Assembly (NCBI RefSeq): GCF_017996735.1
Contig: NZ_JAGOGJ010000023.1
Location: forward strand, 1-64,000
Reading direction: 5' to 3'
Length of the DNA stretch: 64,000 bases
DNA from: Niveispirillum sp.
GTDB taxonomy: Bacteria > Pseudomonadota > Alphaproteobacteria > Azospirillales > Azospirillaceae
The position numbers were made by a program, and so were the translations under genes. The notes beneath the pieces were generated by a model. It saw nothing but the letters and a program-made list of their open reading frames with translations, had not been told where the DNA came from and did no database searches. Shown here piece after piece: positions 55,725 through 62,421 of the stretch; the first letter of the stretch is position 1; the number at the start of each line of letters is the position of its first letter.

Positions 55725-55892
55725 TCAAGAGAATACGCTGTGAGCATCCGAGATATCCTCGTTGCCGGAGGTGCCACTTACCAGGGTTGATTGAGCCAGC
55801 GGCATCACCGTCAGTTTCGGTGCGGACCATGGCCGCCGGGATACGGCAGGCGTGGCGTCTTCGGTACGGGAGGCATCCATAGGGTGCTCCAT
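55725..55892 (-). CDS. Candidate RiPP (lasso-like) precursor peptide
   Basis: A 55-aa peptide starting at 55892, with GGAG nine bases upstream. The leader has W-x-x-P-x-L (PWSAPKL), the counterpart of the Y-x-x-P-x-L recognition motif bound by PqqD-like B1 proteins. The C-terminal part is STLVSGTSGNEDISDAHSVF plus a final Ser. A cleavage before Gly would give GTSGNEDISDAHSVFS, with Asp at ring position 7; starting at Ser would allow Glu7 or Asp8. The usual Gly in the middle of the leader motif is missing (Pro), and no Thr sits exactly two residues before an obvious Gly, except Thr before SG in GTSG. It is flanked by the oxygenase and cyclase genes. The identity is inferred. Confidence 0.6.
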   Translation of the reverse strand: MEHPMDASRTEDATPAVSRRPWSAPKLTVMPLAQSTLVSGTSGNEDISDAHSVFS

Positions 55893-56002: not shown

Positions 56003-56635
56003 CTATCGGCCTTCCGTTGATTTGGATGCGTAGGGCCACGTCCTGTTTTCGTCTAGCATGATGTTGACCGATACCCGCCAGTAATTAAGTGTCTCGTTTA
56101 CAACATACCCGCCATCATGTTCAGTATTTGACCTGAAAACAACAAATCTTCCGGACTTGTAGGTGATCTTGTGGTCTTTTAAAAAGAATTCGCCGCCGTC
56201 TGCGGCGTTCCAGATCGGATTCAGGAACCCCAGAATTGTCCACACGCCGGCATCGCGCGTGTCGACATGAAAATTTGTACGCGATGTGCTGGACTTCGCG
56301 CCGACATGAATCCGAAAAATATTAGGCGGAAGATGGACGTTATATTGTTTCTTTGCCATGTCCCTGATTCTGAACACGATGGCTCGGAAATATCCACTGA
56401 AGAGCTGGTTGGTTGATTGTCCCCGGTCTTCTATATGCAGTCCCGGAAAACTCATGAACGGGATGTTGGGCAGCGCCGGACTGTTGGATGTCCGGGATAA
56501 TGTCCAGCCATCAGTGTTCAACAGGCTGTGGTAGAGCCAGAGCAATTCCTCGCCGCTGATCACGGAATCGAAGATGTAATGTTCCGGCGGGGTGGCGGCG
56601 GGTGCCCCCTGCGGCCTGACGATATCCTGCGCCAT
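56003..56635 (-). CDS. 2-Oxoglutarate/Fe(II)-dependent oxygenase
   Basis: A 210-aa protein with the 2-His-1-carboxylate iron site His123-X-Asp125 (NFHVD) and His173 (NTEHDGG), and Arg187 (YWRVSVN) for 2-oxoglutarate. The core resembles prolyl 4-hydroxylase-like 2OG-FeII_Oxy domains. GGGGGAAG precedes the ATG. It lies 110 bp upstream of the precursor, on the same strand as the cyclase, so it probably hydroxylates the peptide (Asp or Asn are possible targets). Some lasso clusters carry such tailoring enzymes. Target residue is unknown. Confidence 0.8.
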   Translation of the reverse strand: MAQDIVRPQGAPAATPPEHYIFDSVISGEELLWLYHSLLNTDGWTLSRTSNSPALPNIPFMSFPGLHIEDRGQSTNQLFSGYFRAIVFRIRDMAKKQYNVHLPPNIFRIHVGAKSSTSRTNFHVDTRDAGVWTILGFLNPIWNAADGGEFFLKDHKITYKSGRFVVFRSNTEHDGGYVVNETLNYWRVSVNIMLDENRTWPYASKSTEGR

Positions 56636-57263
56636 CCAACTTCCCCCAATCGTTCTCGTGAACGTTGTCGACTATTGCCGATTGATAGCCCATGAGGATG
56701 CTGAATGCCAGTGGAGGGGCCCGGCTGGTGGCACATCACCCCCTTCCTGCCGTCCTCAATAGTGGTCCTCCCTGTCCTGTGGGTTCGTATCGGGAGCAGG
56801 GACCGATTTTCAGGAAGGGATGGGCATCATGGTTCCCGGGTTGGATATCAATTGGTGTCTATGAGGCGGGCTTGTGCGCAGAAGAAATATTTCCATGTGT
56901 CTGTAAGTTGATGACGCCGTTAAAATTGCACACAAGGTGTCATTTATTTCAAATAATAATAATTCATAAATAAATATTCATTCACATTGACTTGCGATCA
57001 ATTAATGACTTTAAACATATGGATTTATTTTAAATATACATAACATAAACGCCTTCTTTTAATTTCAAGTGTATTCAATTTTCTACGAATATTCTTGTAG
57101 TTGTTACTGATTACAAGTAAAATTGTATATATAAACGGTGACACGACCTAAGATTTAATGATACCGTCTGATCCGCGCTAAATTCCGTCTTGTGGGAACG
57201 CTACCTGTATCCATCGGATCGGGGTCGAGCGATGGCGTTCCCGCATAAGCAAGGGAGGTTCCT
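56636..57263. promoter_or_regulatory. Divergent AT-rich control region of the RiPP/tail-collar locus
   Basis: No gene is credible in this 628-bp gap. Near the oxygenase it has the palindrome CGTTC-TCGT-GAACG (56651-56664). From about 56880 to 57140 the sequence becomes strongly AT-rich, unlike the rest of the window. Two sigma-70-like promoters can be read: TTGACT-N17-TTTAAA (56987-57015) and TTGTAG-N17-TAAAAT (57095-57123). TACAA-N6-TTGTA (57112-57127) is an inverted repeat over the second -10. Such AT-rich tracts are typical targets of nucleoid silencers and of acquired DNA. Confidence 0.55.
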
Positions 57264-57827
57264 ATGGGTGACTATTATATTGGAGAAATCCGCCTTTTCC
57301 CTTATAATAATATTCCCCGAGATTGGCACATCTGTGATGGTACTATACTACCAGTACAAAATAATGCCGCGCTGTTCAGTTTGATTGGTAATTATTTTGG
57401 TGGTGATGGCAGGAACAATTTTGCCCTTCCCAATCTTCAAGGGCGGGTTGTTGTTGGCTCGCATGATCCAAGTCAGCATCTCCCCGCCACGGTGGGTGGA
57501 AGTTTCGGCTCTGATCTCATCACGCTCACTGATGCTCAGATCCCTCCCCACACTCATAATCTGATGGGCGTCGCGGCTCAGGGTTCGCCAACAGTCGGGG
57601 CAAAGGGGGCCTTTATTGGCGAAGCCGCGAGTCCATCTCCAGTCCCGCCAGGGGCGCCGGCGGCCCCGCCGCTCTACCAGAGTTCCTTGACTGCGACCGG
57701 GAAGGTTCTTCTGAACGGGTTCAGCGTTGGGGCAACGGGTGGTGGTGCCGGGCATGAAAACCGACAGCCCTATCTGGCGTTGATGTACTGCATCTCCATG
57801 TCAGGCGTCTACCCGCCGCGCCCATAA
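57264..57827 (+). CDS. Phage tail-collar (MdpB-type) protein 1
   Basis: A 187-aa protein with an N-terminal tail-collar domain: GEIRLFPYNNIPRDWHICDG, LPVQNNAALFSLIGNYFGGDGR and FALPNLQGRVVVG. QIPPHTHNLMG begins the C-terminal half, which ends MSGVYPPRP. This is the microcystin-dependent-protein (MdpB) form, free of phage tail-fibre genes. GGGAGG is five bases before the ATG. It heads a four-gene plus-strand operon and follows the AT-rich promoter region. Function is unknown; a receptor-binding or displayed role is a guess. Confidence 0.88.
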   Translation: MGDYYIGEIRLFPYNNIPRDWHICDGTILPVQNNAALFSLIGNYFGGDGRNNFALPNLQGRVVVGSHDPSQHLPATVGGSFGSDLITLTDAQIPPHTHNLMGVAAQGSPTVGAKGAFIGEAASPSPVPPGAPAAPPLYQSSLTATGKVLLNGFSVGATGGGAGHENRQPYLALMYCISMSGVYPPRP

Positions 57828-57875: not shown

Positions 57876-58409
57876 ATGGATTGGTTCGTAGGCGAAATCC
57901 GTCTTTTTGCTGGCAATTACGCGCCGGAAGGCTGGGTGCTTGCCGATGGCCGGGCCCTTAGCATCCAGCAATTCCCGGCGCTGTATGCGCTATTGGGAAC
58001 ATTGTATGGCGGGGACGGAAGGACATCGTTCAATGTGCCCGATCTGCGTAGCCGGTTGCCATTGGGGACAGGCAAAACCACCTCAAACTCCGCCCATACC
58101 TATATCCTTGCGGAAAAAGGCGGTGTGGAGAGTGTGGCGCTGACTGAAGCCAATTTGCCTGCGCATACCCATGCGCTGCAGGCGACGAGGGATGATGCCG
58201 ATCAGGTGTCGCCTGCCGGCCATTATTTGGCCGATACGCCCGATAATCTGCCCACCTACATTGCATATATCGCCACGGCTACAACCCGTGTTCTGGCTGA
58301 TCAATCGATAACTCAGGCTGGCGGGGGGCAGACCCACGGCAACATCATGCCATGTCGGTCCGTCACCTATATCATTGCCACCAACGGCATTTTCCCAACG
58401 CAAGGTTAG
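57876..58409 (+). CDS. Phage tail-collar (MdpB-type) protein 2
   Basis: A 177-aa paralogue. It shares GEIRLFAGNYAPEGWVLADGR, IQQFPALYALLGTLYGGDGR, FNVPDLRSRLPLG and the ANLPAHTHAL segment. The C-terminus MPCRSVTYIIATNGIFPTQG resembles that of protein 1. AGAGGAG is close to the ATG. It starts 48 bp after protein 1. The three paralogues differ most in the middle, as expected if each binds a different partner; alternatively they form one heteromeric complex. Confidence 0.88.
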   Translation: MDWFVGEIRLFAGNYAPEGWVLADGRALSIQQFPALYALLGTLYGGDGRTSFNVPDLRSRLPLGTGKTTSNSAHTYILAEKGGVESVALTEANLPAHTHALQATRDDADQVSPAGHYLADTPDNLPTYIAYIATATTRVLADQSITQAGGGQTHGNIMPCRSVTYIIATNGIFPTQG

Positions 58410-58514: not shown

Positions 58515-59075
58515 ATGGCTGACGCCTTTGCCGGAGAAATCCGTGCATTCCCCTATAATTTTACGCCCGTCGGTTGGTTGCTGTGCGATGGCAGCGAGCT
58601 TCCGATCCAGCCTTATGCTGCGCTTTTCGCCACGATCGGCAACACTTATGGCGTGCCGCGTGTATCGAGCAATTTTATCCTGCCCGATCTGCGCGGCCTT
58701 GCCCTTGTTGGTGCCGGACAGGGGCCGGGCCTGAGCTTTTATCAACTGGGGCCACACGCCTATGGGGCGCCGTCGGTCACGATCACGACAGCGCAAATGG
58801 CAGCACATAACCACTCCTTCCAGACCCAGGGTGGGGCAACCCGCGTGACCGAACCGTCGTCCGCCGCACTGTTCACCGTGCCCAGTTGGAAGAGCGGCGC
58901 CACCACCGCCAACTACCAGAACTACGTCGCGCCGTCCTCGTCTGTGACGCCGGTGCCGTTGGCGCCGGATTCGTTGCTGCCTGTCGGTGGTGGTCAAGCT
59001 CACAGCAATTACCAGCCTTTGCTGATCTTCAGGGTCTGCATCAACTATGACGGCTATTTCATGCCGCGTCCGTGA
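58515..59075 (+). CDS. Phage tail-collar (MdpB-type) protein 3
   Basis: A 186-aa paralogue with GEIRAFPYNFTPVGWLLCDG, IQPYAALFATIGNTYG and FILPDLRGLALVGAGQGPG. AQMAAHNHSFQ replaces the PHTH/AHTH signature of the other two. It ends INYDGYFMPRP, close to the YPPRP ending of protein 1. GGAGG is eight bases upstream. It is separated from protein 2 by 105 bp and from the GNAT gene by only 6 bp. Confidence 0.88.
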   Translation: MADAFAGEIRAFPYNFTPVGWLLCDGSELPIQPYAALFATIGNTYGVPRVSSNFILPDLRGLALVGAGQGPGLSFYQLGPHAYGAPSVTITTAQMAAHNHSFQTQGGATRVTEPSSAALFTVPSWKSGATTANYQNYVAPSSSVTPVPLAPDSLLPVGGGQAHSNYQPLLIFRVCINYDGYFMPRP

Positions 59076-59081
59076 TCGGCC

Positions 59082-59639
59082 ATGATGCACCTGAATAGGC
59101 AAGGTTGTTCGGAGCTTTGGCTTGACGCGCCCACCGTTCTGGTTCGCGCGGGCTATGGCTTGCGGCGGGAAGGGGAGCAAGATCTCCCCTTCCTGCGCAC
59201 GCTTTATGCCAGCACGCGGGCCGAGGAAATGCGCGCCAGCGGTTGGACAAAAAAGCAACAGGAGGTCTTTCTGGCCGAACAGTTCAGGTTACAGGATGCC
59301 CATTATCGTCGGGAATTTCCCGACACCGTTCGCCAGATCGTCGTAAAGGATGCGCAGCCCGTCGGCCGGCTTTATCTGCGGCGCGTCAATCTGCCGTTGC
59401 CGGCCCGGCCGGAAATCCGGGTGAATGATATCGCCCTGCTGCCTGTCGCGCGGTCTCAGGGTATTGGATCGGCGCTGATGAAGGCGGTGCTGGAGATTGC
59501 CGCCGCAGAGGGGCTGATAGTGTCGCTGACCGTGTATGAGGATAACCGTGCCCTCAACCTCTACCACCGCCTGGGTTTTCACGGGGTGACCAGGGAAAAT
59601 GGTCGGTTGCTGATGCGGTGGCGCCCACAAGCCGGGTGA
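59082..59639 (+). CDS. GNAT family N-acetyltransferase
   Basis: A 185-aa acetyltransferase. The acetyl-CoA loop is LLPVARSQGIGSALM (V/I-x-x-x-x-R/Q-x-x-G-x-G/A), followed by LTVYEDNRALNLYHRLGFHGV. It starts 6 bp after collar protein 3, so they are co-transcribed. Collar protein-GNAT neighbours are a recurring pair in other genomes as I recall. It may modify the peptide, a collar protein or a toxic product. It converges on the B2 gene (9 bp apart). Confidence 0.88.
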   Translation: MMHLNRQGCSELWLDAPTVLVRAGYGLRREGEQDLPFLRTLYASTRAEEMRASGWTKKQQEVFLAEQFRLQDAHYRREFPDTVRQIVVKDAQPVGRLYLRRVNLPLPARPEIRVNDIALLPVARSQGIGSALMKAVLEIAAAEGLIVSLTVYEDNRALNLYHRLGFHGVTRENGRLLMRWRPQAG

Positions 59640-59647
59640 AATGCGGA

Positions 59648-60130
59648 TCAGGACGGGGGCTGGTTTTGTGAAGGGCGGCCCTGGTGATCCATGCGGGCGA
59701 TCTGCGTGAAGCCTTTTGCGGCTTCGACGCCGGTCACCCCCTCGTCGCCGGCGACCAGCCAGGCGTGGGCACGGAAGCCGCCCACCTTGCTGACCCCGAA
59801 ATGAATGGTCGAGGACACGCCGCGACGGCCCAGCATGATCCGGCCAGCGATGGCTTGGGCCAGGCACGCGGGGGCCCATGGCAGCCGGCGCTGGGCCCGC
59901 ATGATGGCCTGCCGCACCGCCTTGATCCGGGCTGTCGATGCGGCGGCGGGCGGTCCGTCGTCCATGCCTTGCGACCATTGGCCAAGGCGATGGGCGACCC
60001 GACGGAACGGCAACAGACGCAATGCCAGATCAGCGATGGTCAGCATCGCGGCTGCTTCGGTGGCCATGACAATTTCCGTTACGGTCCATCGCCGGACACG
60101 CAGCGCAAAACGGGCGGCCATGCGGATCAT
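59648..60130 (-). CDS. Lasso-type leader peptidase B2 (transglutaminase-like)
   Basis: A 160-aa protein matching the lasso peptide B2 domain. The cysteine-protease-like site is Cys89 (PWAPACLAQAIAGRIML), His122 (FRAHAWLVAGDEG) and the nearby Asp129. It removes the leader from the precursor after B1 delivers it. The start ATG overlaps the PqqD stop by ATGA, so the pair is translationally coupled. The split B1/B2 arrangement is usual for lasso clusters of proteobacteria. It is about 4 kb from the precursor, across the collar genes. Confidence 0.88.
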   Translation of the reverse strand: MIRMAARFALRVRRWTVTEIVMATEAAAMLTIADLALRLLPFRRVAHRLGQWSQGMDDGPPAAASTARIKAVRQAIMRAQRRLPWAPACLAQAIAGRIMLGRRGVSSTIHFGVSKVGGFRAHAWLVAGDEGVTGVEAAKGFTQIARMDHQGRPSQNQPPS

Positions 60131-60420
60131 GCCGCGATCTCTATCAGGCGCTCTTCACGCAATCGGGTGAGCAGCGCCAGCACATCCTGTTCGATCTGCG
60201 CTGGGTCGCCATCATAGATTTCCCCCAAGCCCCGGCAGATCACATCGACGCCGACCGGCGATGCCAGACGCCGCCAGATTTCGCTGCCGATTTCGTCGAG
60301 CCCGTAATATTGCCCGTTATCGATGCTCATCAGCATCGTTTCGCCATCCACTTCGGTGCTCAGCGGCGCGTCGCACCGGCGCACCACGCTGTTGACCGTC
60401 AATTCATCCGTCGCCGTCAT
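60127..60420 (-). CDS. PqqD-like RiPP recognition protein (B1)
   Basis: A 97-aa PqqD/RRE protein. MLMSIDNGQYYGLDEIGSEIWRRL and the winged-helix C-terminal half (IEQDVLALLTRLREERLIEI) are diagnostic. It binds the leader peptide and presents it to B2 and the cyclase. GGGGG lies seven bases upstream of its ATG. It is coupled to B2. Its W-x-x-P-x-L partner motif is present in the candidate precursor at 55725-55892. Confidence 0.9.
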   Translation of the reverse strand: MTATDELTVNSVVRRCDAPLSTEVDGETMLMSIDNGQYYGLDEIGSEIWRRLASPVGVDVICRGLGEIYDGDPAQIEQDVLALLTRLREERLIEIAA

Positions 60421-60627
60421 GGCATCGCCCCCGCTTTGAGTCCAGAATGATCATGGTATTTTACGCGATCAATAGCTGCAATCGTGTCCGCAAGGGTTGT
60501 CTTGCCTTGCTTCACCCTCCTGGAATAGGCTGGTCGTAGCGCCCGGATACTTATTCTGGTTGAGGGTGCTAAGACTTTCCAGAAAAAGGAATGCCGGCGC
60601 TGGGCAAGAAAGAAATGTCGGTCTGTG

Positions 60628-62421
60628 ATGGGTGATCGGGATATGCGCGGCGCCGGGTTGACGGCCGGGGGTGATGCCATGGTGCCGTCCGTTCTTGATC
60701 TTCCCCGCCGTCTGGCCGCCATGGGGCGCCGCCGCGCCGGGACGGCGCTTCTGCTCAATGCTGGCGCCGGCCTGACCGAGGGTATCGGGCTGCTGGCCCT
60801 GGTGCCCCTTCTGAAGCTGTTGGGGATCGGCGTCGAGGGTCAGGGCGGCGTGCCCGAACCGGCGTTCCTCGCCCTGGCGCTCGGCGGTTATGTGCTGCTG
60901 GTTGCCACTGCCGCGCTGATCGGGCGTGCCCGGACCCTGGCGGCGCACACGCTGACCATGGAGTTCCTGGATCGCCTGCGGGCCGACCTTCACGCCGCCA
61001 TCCTTGATATGGAATGGCGCGCCTTCGCCAATCGTCGCGCGGCCGACCTGCAACAGGCGGTCGTCGGGGAGATCGGCCGCATCCATGCCGCTATCGTCGC
61101 ATTGGGCGATCTGTTGGGCGCGGCGCTGGCGATACCGTTCCTCGCCGCCGCCGCCTTCGTTCTTTCCCCCGTCCTGACCCTTGCGGCGGTCGGGGTGGTG
61201 ATGGTGGCGGCGCTGGTCACCCGTGGTCTGGGCGCGCGTGGGTGGCGGCTGGGCCGCGAACTGGGCCATGCCAACAAGGCGGCCATGGCCGACCTTGTCG
61301 ACAACCTCGCCGGTTTGCGTCTGATCAAGCTCTTCGCCGCCGAGTCCGCCCGCAAAGCCGGGCTGACGGCGCGCTTTGCCGCCGTGCGCGAAAAACAGCA
61401 TGCCTATCAGCGTGCCCAGTCGACAGAGCGTGCCGTGCTGCAGGTGATCGCTGCGGTGGCGGCGGCGGGTGGTCTGTTCCTGGCATTGTTTGTCCTGCGC
61501 CTGCCGCTGGCCGAAGCGCTTGCCCTCATGCTGGTCTATGGCCGCTTGCTGCAGGCGGCGCTGCGCTGCCTGTCCGCGTGGAGGCGCCTGAACGGCGCGG
61601 CGGCGGCACTCGTCTCCTATGATGAAACGCTGGTGGCCTGTCGTGACGCGGCCGAGGTGCGCGTGGCCGATCTGCCGGCGCCGGTCTTGCGTCGGGAAAT
61701 CCGCCTGTCCGGCGTTGTCGTCCGCCATCCGGGTCAGGACCGTCCGGCGCTGGACCATCTGGATGCGGTCCTTCCCGCCGGTCAGGTCACGGCCCTGATC
61801 GGCCCGTCGGGGGCGGGCAAGTCGACATTTGTCGATCTGGTCCTGGGCCTGACCGCGCCGGATGCGGGCCATGTCGCCATCGATGACGTGCCCCTGACCC
61901 CGGACCGGCGTCGCGCCTGGCGATCCGTTGTTTCCGCCTGTCCGCAAGACCCGTTCCTGTTCCATGATACGCTGCGCGCCAACCTGCTGCTGGCCCGCCC
62001 CGATGCCGTGGAGGCCGAATTATGGTCGGCGCTGGAGGCGGCAGCCATCGCCGATCTGGTTCGCGTCCAGCCCTTGGGCCTTGATACGCTGGCCGGTGAC
62101 CGCGGTCTGCGCTTTTCGGGTGGTGAGCGGCAGCGGCTGGCGCTGGCCCGGGCCTTGCTGCGCGGGCCGGTATTGCTGGCGCTGGACGAGGCCACCGCCT
62201 CCCTCGACGATCAGACGGCGGCGGCGGCGGCAACCGCCATCGACCGTCTGCGCGGCAGAACCACCGTGCTTGTCATCGCCCACCGCCTTAGCGCCGTTGC
62301 CCATGCCGACCATGTGCTGTTGATGGAGGCGGGGCGTGTCGTCGCCGCCGGGACATGGCAGGAGGTGCGCGCCCAGGCCGGGCCGCGTCTGGCCGCCATC
62401 GGCATGCTGGATGATGCCTGA
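60628..62421 (+). CDS. ABC transporter with fused membrane and ATPase domains (lasso exporter type)
   Basis: A 597-aa half-transporter. The membrane domain (about residues 40-330) has four to six hydrophobic helices. The ATPase has Walker A GPSGAGKST (392-400), signature FSGGERQ (Ser497) and Walker B LLALDEATASLD, with IAHRLS as the H-loop. It is divergent from the PqqD gene with 207 bp between, so it is probably the peptide exporter and immunity protein of the cluster. A GTG at 60625 and ATG at 60643 are alternative starts; no good ribosome-binding site decides. No small gene was supported in the 60421-60627 gap. Confidence 0.88.
   Translation: MGDRDMRGAGLTAGGDAMVPSVLDLPRRLAAMGRRRAGTALLLNAGAGLTEGIGLLALVPLLKLLGIGVEGQGGVPEPAFLALALGGYVLLVATAALIGRARTLAAHTLTMEFLDRLRADLHAAILDMEWRAFANRRAADLQQAVVGEIGRIHAAIVALGDLLGAALAIPFLAAAAFVLSPVLTLAAVGVVMVAALVTRGLGARGWRLGRELGHANKAAMADLVDNLAGLRLIKLFAAESARKAGLTARFAAVREKQHAYQRAQSTERAVLQVIAAVAAAGGLFLALFVLRLPLAEALALMLVYGRLLQAALRCLSAWRRLNGAAAALVSYDETLVACRDAAEVRVADLPAPVLRREIRLSGVVVRHPGQDRPALDHLDAVLPAGQVTALIGPSGAGKSTFVDLVLGLTAPDAGHVAIDDVPLTPDRRRAWRSVVSACPQDPFLFHDTLRANLLLARPDAVEAELWSALEAAAIADLVRVQPLGLDTLAGDRGLRFSGGERQRLALARALLRGPVLLALDEATASLDDQTAAAAATAIDRLRGRTTVLVIAHRLSAVAHADHVLLMEAGRVVAAGTWQEVRAQAGPRLAAIGMLDDA

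Follow-up and report, generated by a model that had tools for sequence, protein, structure and literature searches.

The 55-aa open reading frame beside the cyclase gene in the 64,000-nucleotide stretch of Niveispirillum DNA analysed here (the window) is, as judged from its sequence and that of its relatives, a genuine lasso peptide precursor and the sole good candidate in its locus. With a probability of roughly 80%, it is a WxxPxL-type precursor that would be cut after Leu37, closed into a ring between Val1 and Glu8 (or Asp9) and exported by an ABC protein, with a neighbouring 2OG-Fe(II) oxygenase likely hydroxylating it. The precursor is ordinary in kind and adds one lasso peptide of a known type with a redefined core; the interest of the locus lies mainly in the absence of a kinase together with the presence of the oxygenase, and in a cassette of tail-collar genes (Table 1).

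Table 1. Features of the lasso locus, with positions in the window.
Feature	Position	Strand	Evidence
Lasso cyclase C, asparagine-synthase type, 631 aa	53765..55660	-	PF00733 4.7e-22; NF033535 4.4e-45 but under cut-off; tree
Lasso precursor gene A, 55 aa (leader 1-37, core 38-55)	55725..55892	-	translation, RBS, single pattern match, family alignment
Predicted core VSGTSGNEDISDAHSVFS	55728..55781	-	Val1-Glu8 or Val1-Asp9 ring; Ser at C-terminus; register of 31 aligned precursors
Thr36, predicted leader position -2	55785..55787	-	Thr at W+13-15 in 31/31 precursors
Recognition motif W22-S-A-P25-K-L27 (positions -16 to -11), predicted B1 binding	55812..55829	-	motif in 31/31 family precursors; WxxPxL-B1 structure, PMC13381572
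2OG-Fe(II) oxygenase, 210 aa, candidate tailoring enzyme, first in apparent oxygenase-A-C operon	56003..56635	-	PF13640 1.4e-5; phrog_274 2.8e-12
Tail-collar protein 1	57264..57827	+	PF07484 1.1e-23
Tail-collar protein 2	57876..58409	+	PF07484 1.9e-26; T4 gp12 relatives
Tail-collar protein 3	58515..59075	+	PF07484 3.5e-21
GNAT acetyltransferase, cassette end	59082..59639	+	PF00583 1.6e-13; position common to most related cassettes
B2 leader protease	59648..60130	-	NF033537 93 bits (cut-off 33); PF13471
B1 / PqqD-like RRE	60127..60420	-	PF05402 1.5e-17; NF033536 9e-19; best solved relative 9x90_B
ABC exporter D	60625..62421	+	PF00005, PF00664

The cyclase, the B1 RRE and the B2 protease are all encoded near the precursor. 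On the minus strand the oxygenase, precursor and cyclase genes follow one another in this order, apparently as one operon, and the three collar genes and the GNAT gene stand between them and B1/B2. The genome contains one cyclase (search at E 1e-30) and, by family searches, one B1 and one B2. The window cyclase shares about 30-36% identity with its nearest relatives. In a quick tree it groups, on a long branch, with W-type rows from Alphaproteobacteria and other Pseudomonadota in a clade of 25 rows (support 95), separate from the Paenibacillus/Cohnella clade. The closest PDB relative of B1 is 9x90_B, itself a lasso B1 (2e-13); in an alignment to it read by eye, B1 retains three residues of the PbaB1 Trp pocket (PMC13381572), Ile44, Leu65 and Tyr69, and other pocket residues differ. 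B1 has Met31 in 36 of 43 W-type loci versus Leu31 in all seven Y-type loci, a contrast that is confounded by phylogeny and is left out of the argument.

The precursor frame translates as MEHPMDASRTEDATPAVSRRPWSAPKLTVMPLAQSTLVSGTSGNEDISDAHSVFS* (55 aa) and has GGAG a short distance 5′ of its ATG; the W-S-A-P-K-L and the later Pro are present as the earlier note described them. It carries both the [Y/W]xxPxL leader motif and a Thr at -2, and by the family register its acidic residues within core positions 7-9 are Glu8 and Asp9. The frame is one among many small ORFs in the window. A strict pattern (WxxPx[LVMIF], then Thr, an acid 8-9 residues on and a C-terminal Ser or Thr) matches it alone in 18 kb, where Markov shuffles give an expectation of 0.017, a figure that describes uniqueness within the locus and is no independent test, because the pattern was devised after the family had been seen; the remaining 46 kb of the window gave no match. 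The idea that the true precursor is another frame of the locus is rejected: of the three further matches of a looser scan, one is the LysR frame and two are stretches open by chance. The original proposal, that a lasso precursor whose leader has WxxPxL adjoins the cyclase, is upheld. A search with the precursor sequence returned only the match to its own genome and no close homologue; the motif and the register are common to the precursor and its relatives, and the sequence is not. That automated finders might miss this family, as had been suggested, holds in part: no Pfam, NCBIfam or PHROG model matches the peptide, and the cyclase and B1 score under their NCBIfam cut-offs (154 against 525 and 67 against 80 bits), but the cluster is detectable because B2 matches NF033537 well above its cut-off.

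The core was assigned from an alignment of 31 precursors from the bacterial family of the window, its own included. A cyclase search of 82 genomes of the order gave matches in 24 genomes (36 in all, with that of the window), and the 35 other loci were fetched; 29 held at least one precursor candidate, two were found in one locus and none in six. In the precursor scans the motif could begin with W, Y, F (and H), and where a locus offered several candidates the pick was made by eye. The first residue is W in all 31 picked precursors. For a wider comparison of cyclase loci, a single-sequence scan of genome contigs gave no matches and a 15-row alignment was too diverse, whereas a 4-row alignment yielded 80 further loci. 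The 62 automatic candidates from the family loci and these further loci, spread over several phyla, divide into 42 with W, 15 with Y and 5 with H, the H-type candidates and a few others looking like chance frames. The W in place of Y, regarded as unusual in the earlier note, is therefore not so, and WxxPxL has already been published as the paeninodin-type leader signature, bound by the Trp pocket of B1 (PMC13381572). Although the same 2026 paper calls paeninodins restricted to Bacillota (PMC13381572), a WxxPxL leader together with a C-terminal Ser and an HPr-type kinase is the rule in a large alphaproteobacterial group.

In the alignment, a Thr stands at W+13-15 in every precursor and at W+13 or W+14 in 29 of 31 (shuffle mean 6.3, maximum 15), a spacing that is partly built in, since one scan demanded a Thr at about that place. 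Two further regularities were not scan requirements: core position 8 or 9 is acidic in 28 of 31 (shuffle mean 7.5, maximum 17), and 29 of 31 end in Ser. By position, acids number 24 at 8, nine at 9 and none at 5, 6 and 11. Homologues next to similar cyclases do fix the core, as the earlier note had expected. With Thr at -2 and the acid at 8 or 9, the register gives the window precursor a leader of residues 1-37 and a core of V38-S55, and the ring probably starts at Val38 and closes on Glu45 or Asp46 (Glu8 or Asp9). Against this assignment, Val is uncommon as core residue 1 (2/31). The predicted first core residue is Asn in 8/31 and Lys in 2/31 of the family precursors (L049, L053, L046, L073, L051, L056 and others); Asn and Lys are rare in this position among lasso peptides. 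In the precursors of L044 and L045 the predicted core contains a pair of Cys (GTNCGNGSDGFITFCLIAPS; ITNCGSGSDGVICQTAGGS), which suggests a disulfide besides the ring.

The C-terminal Ser of the window core is the counterpart of the kinase site of its relatives, and it is here that the locus departs from its family. No HPr-type kinase match was obtained between 46 and 64 kb with a threshold as loose as E 10, or across the rest of the contig, whereas all the other collar-linked cyclase loci of the family have such a match, except the 3.4-kb fragment L065. The cluster holds instead a candidate 2OG-Fe(II) oxygenase, whose identity comes from weak profile matches: the hit to PF13640 lies just below the cut-off, and that to phrog_274 is nearly full length but bears the label ‘DNA endonuclease V’, which we take to be a mislabel. 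A fold model made without an alignment was uninformative (pLDDT 31). The A+T-rich stretch 56636-57263 (G+C 0.43) separates the divergent oxygenase and collar genes and likely holds the promoters of both. A lasso-type HPr kinase gene also occurs as an orphan far from the lasso cluster (G000:C94; L092 4777-5976), beside frames that, read by eye, appear sulfotransferase-like and cupin/JmjC-like.

These features could also be those of a decaying cluster that has lost its kinase, keeps the C-terminal Ser as a relic and acquired the oxygenase as an unrelated recent insertion. Besides the missing kinase, the G+C content of the oxygenase gene (0.52 versus 0.64 for the window) and the failure to find relatives of the enzyme elsewhere in the order (82 genomes searched), in 385 genomes sampled from the class, in plasmids or among PDB sequences agree with such a history. 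It is nevertheless unlikely, since the reading frames of A, B1, B2, C and D are intact and each matches its own family, and the orphan kinase could act in trans.

Two other cleavage sites, which correspond to the rings first proposed for this peptide (Gly1-Asp7, and Ser1-Glu7 or Ser1-Asp8), are misfits in the family alignment. A second Thr, T41, also yields a Thr(-2) site, with a core beginning GNEDISD; cutting the same precursor later, after Ser42, would release GNEDISDAHSVFS with a seven-residue Gly1-Asp7 ring. Gly is among the favoured first residues, 13-residue cores are known in relatives and the accepted ring size of lassos is 7-9 residues (PMC5067487), but the distance from W to Thr would be 19 residues, as against 13-15 in all 31 aligned precursors, and an acid occupies core position 7 in only 3/31, so that this site is quite improbable. 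A core starting at Ser39 would place W at -17, as in BsfA-type leaders (PMC10368454), but is the most doubtful assignment of all, since Thr would then occupy -3 and Leu -2, an arrangement that differs from that of the aligned relatives.

For the preferred core from Val38, the gene set, the leader motif, the register of Thr(-2) and acid(8/9) and the C-terminal Ser are read from the sequence, and from these we infer the following course of cleavage, ring closure, threading and export, with hydroxylation as an early step. B1 would grip the leader via Trp(-16), Pro(-13) and Leu(-11). The candidate oxygenase, whose gene is probably part of the precursor operon, likely acts ahead of cleavage to hydroxylate the precursor, by analogy with CanE in canucin biosynthesis (PMC9266682). 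B2 would then cleave after Leu37, with Thr36 at -2, and the cyclase would close the ring about the threaded tail by linking the amine of Val1 with the Glu8 (or Asp9) side chain. Finally, the ABC protein would carry the product out of the cell.

The tail-collar genes accompany lasso clusters far beyond the window. In the fetched stretches, collar genes were found at 24 of the 36 family cyclase loci, the window counted, mostly as three genes and usually with a GNAT gene. By a rough estimate from the few collar genes that a genome of several Mb contains, about 1-2 per 100 loci would be expected to have one near a lasso cluster by chance; the genome of the window has three PF07484 genes, all within the window. 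Two clusters whose cyclases are more divergent (L080, L082), and two on broken contigs (L089, L090), have the cassette as well. Among the 80 further loci, collar genes were present in alphaproteobacterial or proteobacterial MAGs (L095, L102, L115, L164), in a Sideroxydans MAG (L132, one gene) and in the cyanobacterium Xenococcus PCC 7305 (L172); outside Alphaproteobacteria, most of these loci have none. The link is strong but not obligate, because in some genomes (L078, L079, L081, L083, L085-L088) the cassette stands without lasso genes.

A profile of the collar sequences picks up T4 gp12 and a cyanophage tail fibre, and the alignment contains an invariant HxH, which is reminiscent of the zinc-binding His pair of T4 gp12. 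Foldseek agrees weakly on tail-fibre relatives (best E 1.6e-3) with a low-confidence model of mean pLDDT 58.6, good in the collar part only. No other phage structural genes were seen among the annotated genes around the cassette. Because the association is conserved and a literature search found no published report tying lasso peptides to tail-collar genes, a cassette that travels with lasso clusters may point to the biological role of these peptides. We tentatively propose, at somewhat less than even odds, that the lasso peptides of this family, the tail-fibre-tip-like trio and the GNAT protein might act as a single functional system, such as a trimeric protein, secreted or at the cell surface, that carries, binds or works with the lasso; in the version of the window the 2OG oxygenase would replace the usual C-terminal kinase.

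Among known systems, the cluster shares features with the paeninodin type (PadeA/PadeK, PbaA/PbaB1), namely a WxxPxL leader, split B1 and B2, Thr(-2) and a C-terminal Ser (PMC9266682, PMC13381572). Unlike that type, it has no HPr-type kinase, its predicted ring starts at Val and its cyclase belongs to a separate alphaproteobacterial clade rather than to the Bacillota paeninodin clade. SyanA of Sphingobium yanoikuyae is likewise a proteobacterial lasso precursor with a C-terminal Ser, but that system includes the kinase SyanK (PMC9266682), which has no counterpart in the window cluster. A lasso cluster with a 2OG-Fe(II) oxygenase is also known for canucin A: CanE of Streptomyces canus, beside which the window enzyme is set by description, hydroxylates the linear canucin precursor CanA with the help of B1 (PMC9266682). 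CanE modifies a C-terminal Asp (PMC9266682), whereas the window precursor ends in Ser. The three cassette proteins share the collar domain and a tail-fibre-tip relationship with the receptor-binding end of the T4 short tail fibre gp12, but unlike gp12 they are stand-alone proteins of about 180 aa encoded in a lasso locus.
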